Below are positions 2,011 through 23,536 of a DNA stretch of 64,000 nt, piece by piece (positions within the stretch are counted from its first letter, which is position 1; every line of letters begins with the position of its first letter). The notes beneath the pieces are model-generated. The model did not search any database. It was given only the letters and a program-made list of their open reading frames with translations, and was not told where the DNA came from. Position numbers and translations under genes: made by a program. This stretch comes from Nereocystis luetkeana (lineage: Eukaryota; Sar; Phaeophyceae; Laminariales; Laminariaceae): assembly GCA_031213475.1 (NCBI GenBank), contig JARUPZ010000010.1:3251970-3315969 (forward strand), read 5' to 3'.

Positions 2011-2089
2011 ATGGCTCGACTCTTCACCTTATCCACGGCGGTGCTGGTCACGTTCAGCGCCAACGCTGCCGCCTCACTATTCGCCAAGA
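2011..2089 (+). CDS. Exon 1: signal peptide
   Basis: The ATG opens 26 codons that read as a classical secretory signal: a basic N-terminus (MAR), a hydrophobic core (LFTLSTAVLVTF), then a small-residue region (SANAAAS) suited to signal peptidase. It ends at a strong donor (A|GTGAGT), leaving phase 1, the same phase used by all downstream module exons. That phase match is the main reason to attach it to the cysteine-module gene. The next recognised exon is 4 kb away, so undetected exons are possible. Confidence 0.6.
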
Positions 2090-23000: not shown

Positions 23001-23536
23001 TCCCTGTGTTACGGAAATTCCTCATGATTGGTCATGACCATTGTTCTAAAGTAAGGCCACAGTGCCATCCCTGAAAAGTCACATAGACGAAGGCTAGTAT
23101 TGTGCAGCGATACACTAATTCCACGCCTGGTACGTCGTGTATAAGGTGGTTTTCATTCTACCGCTAAACCATCCGATACGCCTTGAGCGGCGCTTGGAAG
23201 CTCATCCCTTTCTTTCGACGATACAATCTCCTCAGTGCCGTGGGAAAAAAATGGCAACATAGATCCGCAGCACGCGACACAAATCACTCTGGCAAGGGTT
23301 GTTTACGATTCCAATACCGACGGAGGCCTTGGACAATACGGGAAAGCTTGTGTGGCTACCTTTGACCCCCAGGTTGTTGCGTTCCGCCCCCTATCATCTC
23401 TGTTCCCCCCCGTTCCACAGACAATTAAGCAGCGCCTGAAGGGATCGAGGGTTTCGTCCATACCTTCGAGGCATTTGACCGTTACTGGAATAATTCGTCA
23501 TCATCCGGGACGCCAAACGACATGGATGTTGTGTAG
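2011..23536 (+). CDS. Multi-exon gene for a secreted protein of tandem cysteine modules (gene span)
   Basis: Gene model built by eye from splice sites, frame and repetition. Proposed exons: 2011-2089, 6125-6391, (7930-8058, damaged), 8711-8839, 9725-9850, fourteen array exons from 10478 to 20225, 20858-20977, 21693-21812, 22746-22982, 23236-23349 and 23433-23536. Every module exon begins and ends in phase 1, so each can be added, lost or skipped without changing the frame. Joined, they give about 1,040 residues: a signal peptide, about 20 modules with the spacing C-x6/7-C-x4-C-x14-C-x4-C-x4-CC, then a unique acidic tail. Such a protein would be secreted, extracellular or cell-wall associated, and rich in disulfides. 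I know similar short cysteine modules from algal and protist secreted proteins but cannot assign a named family or function. The weakest links are the 4-kb first intron, the start of the second exon, and the join of the last two exons. Confidence 0.6.
2107..2440. repeat. Degenerate about 93-bp tandem repeat carrying hairpins (intron 1)
   Basis: Four units spaced about 88-97 bp each contain a short stem. The stems are CTCTT/AAGAG (2115-2134), ACTCCT/AGGAGT (2211-2230), CCTC/GAGG (2299-2319) and CTCCTA/TAGGAG (2393-2408). The sequence after each stem is loosely shared (GTTGGTGTTGGGC-like). It lies just after the exon 1 donor. Confidence 0.5.
2441..3174. other. Intron 1 interior, nothing recognised
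   Basis: C-runs occur at about 2707 and 3151. No exon with the module cysteine pattern and no acceptor followed by a phase-1 frame could be found here. Confidence 0.4.
3175..3398. mobile_element. MITE, TTACGGGGGACC family, split by a nested copy
   Basis: This is the outer element of a nested pair. Its left part runs 3175-3220 and its right part resumes at 3329. Removing the inner copy restores the continuous family sequence AAATATTGTTAGTAAAAA at the junction. The right inverted end is more diverged (TACTACGCCCCC), consistent with an older insertion. Confidence 0.85.
3219..3330. mobile_element. Inner MITE nested in a member of its own family
   Basis: This is a complete element with TTACGGGG ends, flanked on both sides by the dinucleotide TA. 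It is inserted at the TA of AATATTGT-TA-GTAAAA in the outer copy. It directly shows that the target-site duplication is TA. Confidence 0.9.
3399..3943. other. No recognisable gene
   Basis: Both strands carry reading frames of 100-143 codons, but they overlap one another and show no splice or domain support. Confidence 0.4.
3944..4125. repeat. (ACT)n trinucleotide microsatellite
   Basis: About 60 tandem ACT units with a single interruption (ACTGCTACT at about 4047). The poly-Leu, poly-Ser and poly-Val frames it opens on both strands are artefacts of the repeat. Confidence 0.98.
4126..4783. other. No recognisable feature
   Basis: Nothing with coding, RNA or repeat structure was recognised in this stretch of intron 1. 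Confidence 0.4.
4784..4920. mobile_element. Short derivative of the poly-C-bounded repeat
   Basis: A run of 21 C (4784-4804) and a run of 22 C (4899-4920) enclose about 94 bp. That segment begins ATGCTCCGTCCCGGCATTG and matches the right-hand end of the full elements at 7062-7612 and 36724-37271. It looks like an internal-deletion copy that kept C-runs at both edges. Confidence 0.65.
4921..6124. other. Intron 1, 3' part: no exon recognised
   Basis: Several frames up to 140 codons exist (for example 5090-5512), but none has the module pattern, a domain I know or clean phase-1 borders. Additional exons of the gene may be hidden here. Confidence 0.35.
6125..6391 (+). CDS. Exon 2: double cysteine module
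   Basis: The frame is open from the AG at 6123-6124 to a clear donor (CTGCG|GTGAGC). Two modules sit in one exon. The first runs from LYCNSIGCPDGY to QCCEAFC; the second runs through FPCPNNY to LCCVC with spacing C-x4-C-x14-C-x4-C-x4-CC. The 267-bp length gives phase 1 at both ends. Its only close relative in the window is 22746-22982, so the two double-module exons bracket the single-module series. The acceptor is uncertain: an AG at 6173-6174 would also work but breaks the phase rule. Confidence 0.65.
6678..6930. mobile_element. MITE with GAGCC ends and 4-bp target duplication, copy 1
   Basis: The left end GAGCCACCCCACGGTAGGG and the right end (reverse complement GAGCCATCCCGCGGTAGGG) form an inverted repeat. 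GTCA precedes the left end and follows the right end. It is about 253 bp, has no coding frame, and lies in the intron after exon 2. A second copy is at 22161-22406. Confidence 0.85.
7062..7612. mobile_element. Poly-C-bounded repeat element, full copy 1
   Basis: This 551-bp sequence begins in a run of 15 C and ends in a run of 8 C on the same strand. It is homologous along its length to 36724-37271. Shared landmarks in order are TAGGTTGGGTTGGCG, CTCCGCACAAG, the hairpin core CACGGCGCTTCGCGCT, and GCTCCGTCCCGGC followed by GTAGGGATGCGAG. It encodes nothing obvious. It lies in the intron between exons 2 and 3, and removing it with the two MITEs brings that intron back near the size of its relatives. 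The class is unknown. Confidence 0.7.
7770..7877. mobile_element. MITE, TTACGGGGGACC family
   Basis: A complete copy with TA at both ends. It is inserted about 52 bp upstream of the acceptor of the damaged exon 3. Confidence 0.9.
7930..8058 (+). pseudogene. Exon 3: decaying cysteine module
   Basis: The frame aligns along all 43 codons with its neighbours (DDC...LYRNSIGSPDGD...VKCEGGPCEVAQCC). Two conserved cysteines are replaced (YC to YR, GC to GS). The donor after the final CC is GCGAGC where every other copy has GTGAGC. Because both borders are phase 1, skipping it would leave the frame intact (exon 2 joined to 8711-8839). A functional GC-AG intron is the alternative reading. Three insertions crowd the intron before it, fitting relaxed constraint. 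Confidence 0.65.
8711..8839 (+). CDS. Exon 4: single cysteine module
   Basis: Acceptor GGCGACAG|AC and donor CTGCG|GTGAGC enclose 43 codons, phase 1 at both ends. All seven cysteines are present (NC, YC, SC, EC, PC, CC), with core words YCDSISCPEDY and VECEDDPCEVSQCC. It follows the common monomer plan. Confidence 0.75.
9370..9620. other. About 250-bp insertion in the intron between exons 4 and 5
   Basis: Compared with the sibling introns, this one is about 260 bp longer. The extra sequence interrupts the shared stretch that elsewhere reads GCGATATGAACATGGCGTCC. No terminal repeats, target duplication or coding potential were seen, and the borders are approximate. Confidence 0.4.
9725..9850 (+). 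CDS. Exon 5: single cysteine module
   Basis: Acceptor CTCGACAG|CC and donor CTGCG|GTGAGC enclose 42 codons in phase 1-1. The module reads AYDCEPATVYCDSISCPDGY, then IDNAGEVEC and DDPCEVAECC, with seven cysteines. It is the last diverged monomer before the homogeneous array. Confidence 0.8.
10478..10597 (+). CDS. Array exon B1: cysteine module type B
   Basis: The exon has 40 codons between CGCCGACAG| and |GTGAGC, phase 1-1. The module begins VCKPPTVYCDSISCPDLY and ends DDDPCEVSQCC, with cysteines at 2, 9, 14, 29, 34, 39 and 40. The B type carries LYVS where most other modules have GYxx. The protein sequence is the same in all seven B exons. Confidence 0.8.
11217..11339 (+). CDS. Array exon A1: cysteine module type A
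   Basis: The exon has 41 codons between GCGCGACAG| and |GTGAGC, phase 1-1. The module begins VCAPPPVLYCDSISCPDGY and ends GDSCEVTECC, with cysteines at 2, 10, 15, 30, 35, 40 and 41. It is identical in all seven A exons. Confidence 0.8.
11974..13454 (+). repeat. Array unit 2 (exons B2 11974-12093, A2 12698-12820)
   Basis: This is the first unit with the 15-bp shorter B-to-A intron (short form CCAAACAATGCCTC near 12330). Both exons keep intact splice sites and frames. Confidence 0.85.
13455..14935 (+). repeat. Array unit 3 (exons B3 13455-13574, A3 14179-14301)
   Basis: No difference from unit 2 was noticed by eye, in exons or introns. Confidence 0.85.
14936..16416 (+). repeat. Array unit 4 (exons B4 14936-15055, A4 15660-15782)
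   Basis: Differs from unit 2 by one intronic base at 16233 (TTGACATTTC instead of TTGAAATTTC). The exons are identical. Confidence 0.85.
16417..17897 (+). repeat. Array unit 5 (exons B5 16417-16536, A5 17141-17263)
   Basis: No difference from unit 2 was noticed. Confidence 0.85.
17898..19378 (+). repeat. Array unit 6 (exons B6 17898-18017, A6 18622-18744)
   Basis: One intronic base differs at 19324 (CCCACCTTCACGG instead of CCCATCTTCACGG), just before exon B7. Confidence 0.85.
19379..20257 (+). repeat. Array unit 7, truncated (exons B7 19379-19498, A7 20103-20225)
   Basis: Identical to the other units up to the sequence just after the A7 donor. From about 20258 the intron switches to a diverged monomer type that leads into exon 20858-20977. 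This marks the right recombination border of the array. Confidence 0.85.
20858..20977 (+). CDS. Single cysteine module exon after the array
   Basis: Acceptor CGCCGACAG| and donor CTGCG|GTGAGC give 40 codons in phase 1-1. The module reads VCDPPTVYCDSVSCPVGY ... VACVDESCELAECC. All seven cysteines are kept while many other residues differ, as expected when the cysteine scaffold is under constraint. Confidence 0.75.
21231..21339. mobile_element. MITE, TTACGGGGGACC family
   Basis: A complete copy inside the intron between 20977 and 21693. Subtracting its length returns that monomer to about 726 bp, in line with its siblings. The right terminus is mutated (CCCGCAGTA). Confidence 0.85.
21693..21812 (+). 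CDS. Single cysteine module exon
   Basis: Acceptor CGCCGGCAG| and donor CTGCG|GTGAGC enclose 40 codons in phase 1-1. The module reads VCKPPTVYCDSMSCPDGY ... VACEDDSCEVDQCC with all seven cysteines. The start resembles B-type exons and the middle resembles A-type exons. Confidence 0.75.
22161..22406. mobile_element. MITE with GAGCC ends and 4-bp target duplication, copy 2
   Basis: It is homologous to 6678-6930 throughout, with shared internal words such as GGGCCAAAGGTTTC and TTCGTTTGAGGACTAG. It is flanked by CTGC on both sides and splits the conserved intron word CTCCTGCCCTCTCC found uninterrupted in the sibling introns. Confidence 0.9.
22746..22982 (+). CDS. Double cysteine module exon near the 3' end
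   Basis: Acceptor GGTGACAG| and donor CTGCC|GTGAGT enclose 79 codons in phase 1-1. The first module (DDCETSILYCNSIGCPDGY ... VAQCC) runs straight into a second (EAFCSYYACPNNC ... ELCCDC). It is the closest relative of 6125-6391. The Tyr found after PNN in that exon is Cys here, adding an extra cysteine. Confidence 0.75.
23236..23349 (+). CDS. Unique 3' exon of the cysteine-module gene
   Basis: After a CTCCTCAG acceptor the phase-1 frame reads LPWEKNGNIDPQHATQITLA and on through VVYDSNTDGGLGQYGKAC. The composition is protein-like and unrelated to the modules. The frame stays open past 23349 (VATFDPQ), so the donor is uncertain. T|GTGTGG at 23350 is the only GT that joins in phase to the next exon. 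Confidence 0.45.
23433..23536 (+). CDS. Terminal exon of the cysteine-module gene
   Basis: From AAGCAG| the phase-1 frame reads PEGIEGFVHTFEAFDRYW then NNSSSSGTPNDMDVV and a TAG stop at 23534-23536. The aromatic and acidic composition is clearly protein-like. Reading FDPQ from the previous exon directly into PEGIEGF is attractive but would require a frame change, so either a non-obvious splice junction or an indel is present. Confidence 0.45.

Follow-up and report, generated by a model that had tools for sequence, protein, structure and literature searches.

We analysed a stretch of 64,000 nucleotides from the brown alga Nereocystis luetkeana (contig JARUPZ010000010.1, positions 3,251,970 to 3,315,969; C10:3251970-3315969 in the analysed 465-Mb assembly of 1,987 contigs), hereafter the window, which carries a long series of exons encoding a small cysteine-rich module. 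On its plus strand, 20 module exons with GT-AG borders lie between 6.1 and 23.0 kb, with AG acceptors and GTGAGC or GTGAGT donors. They encode 22 modules, 18 of the 20 exons carrying a single module and the first and last carrying two each. Phase 1 was found at both borders in 19 of the 20, and the first exon probably runs from phase 0 to phase 1. When all six frames of the window were scanned with a profile of ten of its modules, the profile also used for the paralogue scans below, 23 modules were detected, all on the plus strand between 6172 and 22975 and scoring 41.6-74.3 bits; the best non-module score in the same scan was 8.7 bits. The module exons and the candidate exons flanking them are as follows.

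2011..2089, plus strand: candidate signal-peptide exon (MARLFTLSTAVLVTFSANAAASLFAK), ending in phase 1 at GTGAGT
4315..4364, plus strand: candidate 50-nt linker exon, phase 1 to 0, acceptor attttcag, donor gtgaga
6175..6391, plus strand: first module exon, two modules, probably phase 0 to 1 (module profile, paralogue similarity)
7930..8058, plus strand: variant module exon, 129 nt, open, with a GC donor (GCGAGC); profile score 41.6 bits
8711..8839, plus strand: single-module exon, phase 1-1
9725..9850, plus strand: single-module exon, phase 1-1
10465..20257 (edges approximate), plus strand: array of a 1,481-bp two-exon unit, about 6.5-6.6 units
10478-10597, 11974-12093, 13455-13574, 14936-15055, 16417-16536, 17898-18017 and 19379-19498, plus strand: the seven A exons of the array, phase 1-1
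11217-11339, 12698-12820, 14179-14301, 15660-15782, 17141-17263, 18622-18744 and 20103-20225, plus strand: the seven B exons of the array, phase 1-1
20858..20977, plus strand: single-module exon, phase 1-1
21693..21812, plus strand: single-module exon, phase 1-1
22746..22982, plus strand: last module exon, two modules, phase 1-1
23236..23558, plus strand: candidate terminal exon, 108 residues, one of several options

A first-pass annotation, made from the sequence without database searches, had described the locus as a gene of interchangeable phase-1 exons flanked by AG and GTGAGC or GTGAGT. With its borders, all 20 exons had lengths divisible by three and phase 1 on both sides, as claimed. 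A two-module exon does lie where it placed the first one, at 6125-6391, but the start is probably 6175, in phase 0 instead of phase 1, because three observations agree: similarity to paralogues elsewhere in the genome starts at 6171 (contig C28) or 6168 (contig C12), the acceptor ttttctcgtcccattctgcggcag sits where this similarity begins, and first or only module exons of paralogues appear to start in phase 0. The profile rows starting at 6154 thus include seven residues upstream of 6175, following the earlier border. The last module exon was 80% identical to the first over 219 nt. The exon at 7930-8058, overlooked by the first-pass annotation, has replacements at one tyrosine and at two of the seven cysteines found in its neighbours, and may be used, weak or decaying. 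In the 21 module exons tested, retention of the following intron gave a stop after 7-53 codons, so a long protein would need splicing.

The seven-cysteine scaffold attributed to every module is correct for the window's single-module exons; beyond them, the shared core comprises six cysteines, the seventh, N-terminal one being local. This core, about C-x4-C-x14-C-x4-C-x4-CC in modules of 34-40 residues, was recovered from 42 modules (window plus seven other places) chosen from the window and from the paralogue loci examined outside it (eight places, ~160 kb). Two rows of the scan profile and many rows of the 42-module alignment are second (B-type) modules.

Much of the locus is occupied by the 1,481-bp array, whose unit, consisting of exon A (120 bp) and exon B (123 bp), is repeated nearly identically, introns included; the first unit carries 15 extra bases. 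Any pair among the six full periods showed 0-2 differences, and comparison at a lag of 1,481 from 10851 to 18774 gave four mismatches, one at the edge and two from a single substitution. Judged from the sequence, this suggests very recent amplification or homogenisation of the array. The introns of A and B are only ~67% alike, so the A-B split is far older than the array itself. The array start (~10465) adjoins the acceptor of the first A exon, and its end (~20257) falls ~32 nt inside the intron after the last B exon. Unequal crossing-over between module regions, the parts in which the old copies resemble one another most, is the probable route of change. The first-pass annotation had proposed that module number can change at the DNA level without damage to the frame, and both the near-identical units, which point to DNA duplication, and the frame-neutral phase-1 exons agree with it. 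Elsewhere in the window, a perfect (TG) run of 2,193 bp (47607-49799, 100% matches) represents either a huge microsatellite or an assembly artefact, and therefore calls for caution over perfect repeats in the window.

Constraint on the reading frame was assessed in six diverged single-module exons, giving 15 pairwise comparisons that are not independent of one another. All eight internal exon gaps were multiples of three, compared with 10 of 66 intron gaps. Mean identity was 0.80 in exons versus 0.60-0.68 in the flanking intron pieces, and the exon exceeded both 120-nt flanks in likeness in 14 of the 15 pairs. On this sequence evidence, the module exons are coding-like beyond chance. Among eight diverged copies, the ratio of replacement to silent differences per site (pN/pS) was 0.68 overall (0.44-1.03). 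Ten scaffold positions, picked for their invariance, showed no amino-acid replacement, and the other 23 positions gave a pN/pS of 0.89 (0.65-1.29); the cysteines are thus kept in place, and the loops between them are almost unconstrained. Single pairs reached 1.99, and positive selection was not shown, no pooled pN/pS being clearly above 1. The encoded modules are acidic, with net charges of -6 to -12 and an isoelectric point of about 4 in the six single-module exons, and charges of -4 and -13 in the double exons.

The module belongs to a large dispersed family. With one module as protein query, at least 150 scored matches were obtained among 394 candidates (weakest E 3.5e-4); as 150 of the 394 were scored, this number sets a minimum for the family. 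By a hand-counted split, at least 21 matches lie in the window, at least about 120 on C28 (2.68-6.15 Mb) and a few on contigs C9, C12 and C21. At C28:5538001-5658000 (loci L014-L025), 13 three-module sites stand in tandem, mostly at a spacing of ~8.5 kb. Of these, eleven are intact, one contains a stop and one lacks a cysteine, and six of the 13 encode identical module proteins. This cluster is a gene-level amplification alongside the exon-level one of the window. Loci L028 and L029 hold arrays with a two-module exon every 0.5-0.6 kb. In translations inspected by eye, L029 has Asn-Ser-Thr linkers with sequons beside its modules, and L030 has a charged KDSYE-type repeat followed by three modules in a single open frame. 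Of the loci examined, the window alone had single-module exons, which is not a genome count. As a separate observation on C28, seven module matches at 5.116-5.132 Mb recur at 5.157-5.173 Mb, each displaced by 40,404-40,405 bases, which looks like a segmental duplication.

Exon phases were also recorded in the paralogues, for which 36 module frames were listed. Of the 32 donors found, 31 were in phase 1. The best acceptor was in phase 0 in 18 module exons that were the first or only one, and with few exceptions it lay ~nine bases before the first cysteine; among 16 later array exons it was in phase 1 in 11 and in another phase in three, and none was found in two. These acceptors were ranked by pyrimidine content and counted by hand, with 'first' judged within the stretch examined. 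The pattern suggests a paralogue gene plan consisting of a signal exon, followed by a module exon that begins in phase 0 and then by exons in phase 1. In a tree of the 42 modules, the eight A-type window modules formed one clade (FastTree local support 0.80; weak, with 34 codons) and the two B-type window modules paired together. Because the A-type modules form one clade, tandem duplication in place fits better than the shuffling named by the first-pass annotation, and exon shuffling between genes is unsupported by this tree. To judge from these sequences, the gene probably grew in place from a two-module ancestor like those in the paralogues.

The ends of the proposed gene are less clearly defined than its modules. 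The exon at 2011-2089, previously taken as a signal-peptide exon, encodes a hydrophobic stretch and does end in phase 1, and nine signal-like exons (M.RFLPF...) in the C28 paralogue cluster likewise end in phase 1 at GTGAGT. It is the better of two signal candidates in 6.1 kb, where ~0.9 would be expected by chance (control: 11 candidates in 37.4 kb on both strands, or 0.147 per kb per strand), and it is therefore weak on its own. The linker at 4315-4364, one of 10 candidates, suits the phase gap, since it would convert phase 1 into phase 0; no similar exon was found in the two C28 units examined, where the sole candidate was 17 nt long and dissimilar. At the other end, the tail with which the first-pass annotation closed the frame at 23536 is among the possible ends but is not settled, since the exon ending at 23558, short tails ending at 23428 and read-through of the last donor compete with it. 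Intron 1 contains an (ACT) repeat of 60 copies (3945-4125).

Mobile-element-like sequences were also found in and around the gene, including the following feature.

About 7769..7878: ~110-bp inverted-repeat element in an intron, resembling a miniature inverted-repeat transposable element, with a relative in another intron at 21230-21340

Ends like TATTACGGGGG mark inverted-repeat elements at 1336-1688, 3174-3398, 7770-7877 and 21230-21340, two of which lie between module exons, and similar stretches are present on C28. A second element is common to two introns (6677-6930 and about 22161-22406) and is also found on C28; its inverted ends were seen in the copy at ~22161-22406 only. The open frame at 40306-41277 matched DDE_Tnp_4 (E 4.2e-26), which we take to be a PIF/Harbinger-type transposase. 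This came from a Pfam scan of 122 of the 125 listed window open frames of at least 90 amino acids, covering the window outside 2.0-23.0 kb and the TG run; the 13 other Pfam families listed (best E 1.9e-5, Mucin) look like low-complexity matches. No tRNA or Rfam match was found in the window. Outside it, at L013:7205-9343 on the minus strand, a 713-residue open frame resembles, by eye, a reverse transcriptase of the type without long terminal repeats.

Within the scores reported, no Pfam or NCBIfam family exceeded its cut-off for the modules, in line with the earlier statement that no named family fits; the NCBIfam search returned no match for 10 modules. PHROGs gave two chance-like matches. 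For viral relatives, 30 and 3 pattern matches were obtained and none was confirmed; for prokaryotic relatives, one exon was searched for close relatives only, and none of 24 pattern matches was confirmed. CPL1-like (PF21671) was rejected, scoring 10.9 bits for exon 22746-22982 against a cut-off of 27.4, and it matched six of the 42 modules (best E 0.0029). EsV-1-7 proteins are expanded in brown algae. EsV-1-7 (PF19114) gave no match in the 42 modules tested; in the same genome it yielded 1,710 first-look candidates on many contigs, at least 150 of which were scored and over the cut-off, and none of 14 control genomes was positive, these controls being no test against other eukaryotes. These EsV-1-7 copies, together with the genome size, point to a probable brown-algal host. 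Like the module, EsV-1-7 is cysteine-rich and present in many copies, yet it is another motif in other places. The module description was not found in the literature searched, which does not show its absence from print. The module family is thus new to the libraries searched, its kind of gene structure is known, and its exon array is unusually fresh.

Exons of extracellular modular proteins follow a phase-1 rule. Progranulin and other extracellular modular proteins are likewise chains of disulfide modules, but these are animal families. A close parallel in gene structure is provided by the brown-algal leucine-rich-repeat (LRR) ROCO genes, which also have one repeat per exon, a uniform phase, tandem arrays and recent duplication or shuffling (PMC11378527). 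The window shows the traits of this repeat-exon class, namely many exons, mostly one repeat in each, and one phase. The same text describes 72-bp phase-2 LRR exons in GTPases, whereas the window has phase-1 exons, a probably secreted cysteine module and in-place duplication. In Tetrahymena, LRR genes contain arrays of 90-bp exons, nearly 50,000 of equal length with one dominant intron phase, and these are ascribed to ectopic recombination that shuffled the exons, perhaps aided by retrotransposition (PMC6564038). They differ from the window in being phase-2 LRR exons of a ciliate.

We consider it reasonably probable that the exons form one gene for a secreted, acidic, disulfide-rich protein of ~22-23 tandem modules, serving as a wall, surface or adhesive component. 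Module pairs could be gained or lost through unequal crossing-over between similar stretches with the frame kept, since the exons leave it unchanged. The protein would be exported from the cell and would act as a multivalent component of the cell wall or surface, or as an adhesive, tuned by its length rather than by one active site. By way of comparison, adhesins are secreted by Phytophthora zoospores (PMC3869178), and a 2005 paper title names thrombospondin type 1 repeats there. A structural or adhesive extracellular role is our best guess, based on the likely secretion, the charge, the cysteine content, the repetition and the sequons or charged repeats of paralogues, with defence or recognition as its main rival. 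Several points weigh against this picture. With the linker left out, intron 1 would extend over ~4 kb before the first module exon, a length that leaves a single transcription unit unproven. Both linker and tail are unsettled, the signal exon on its own does not exceed chance expectation, and some paralogue acceptors are not clear. The array may be an assembly error. Two AlphaFold models of modules had predicted local distance difference test scores of 73-76 with differing secondary structures, and neither found a match in the Protein Data Bank (PDB) with Foldseek.

A signal exon no better than chance on its own and the variant exon at 7930-8058, with its GC donor and lost cysteines, would also suit a secreted gene of only two modules next to a repeat array that is decaying or non-coding; we regard this as improbable, as frame-keeping gaps are confined to exons and donors, acceptors and frames are intact in the 20 other module exons. 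A fast-evolving defence or recognition protein, whose loops diversify to bind microbes and whose variants arise by recombination or splicing, is rather unlikely, although it would share a genomic logic with the ROCO LRR exons (PMC11378527), and the nearly unconstrained non-scaffold positions and the clustered, recently duplicated family fit it. The idea that it is an extracellular counterpart of the LRR-ROCO arrays is likewise rather unlikely. The lack of a pooled pN/pS clearly above 1 argues against defence, as does the identity of the newest copies, by which number grows and not diversity; no signalling domain was found in the loci examined, a minority of the family. It is also unlikely, if conceivable, that the modules form a lineage-specific secreted superfamily, clustered mostly on one chromosome-scale contig, whose module number changes rapidly by tandem amplification of both exons and genes, varies in populations and serves extracellular recognition of microbes, gametes or self. 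Distant kinship with the PcF/SCR74 proteins of Phytophthora (PF09461), with an old stramenopile fold reused as a repeat module, appears highly improbable. These proteins are also small and secreted, with six conserved cysteines in PcF, and are short, single-domain and reported from oomycetes only (PMC7327169, PMC5700374). PcF (2bic) was the top PDB sequence match in six of eight overlapping queries (E 0.0084, 0.012, 0.018, 0.038, 0.15 and 0.29), and the alignment spans three cysteines with the equal spacing C-x4-C-x14-C. However, 6127-6390 gave no match, 21695-21811 had a different top match with PcF unlisted, and the match weakened to E 0.29 with 42 diverse modules. The Pfam profile matched three of the 42 (best E 0.19), and genome-wide PF09461 produced nothing over cut-off and 17 weak matches, none at a known module site; the loose search also gave matches in one of 14 control genomes. 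Membership was therefore rejected, and the likeness is a resemblance only.

Brown algae evolved complex multicellularity and walls independently, and to our knowledge little is known of their matrix and recognition proteins. The module family is large, unnamed and freshly expanding, its products are probably secreted, and the near-perfect exon array of this locus may differ from one individual to another. The locus thus offers a test case for whether exon copy number is polymorphic, spliced or selected in brown algae.

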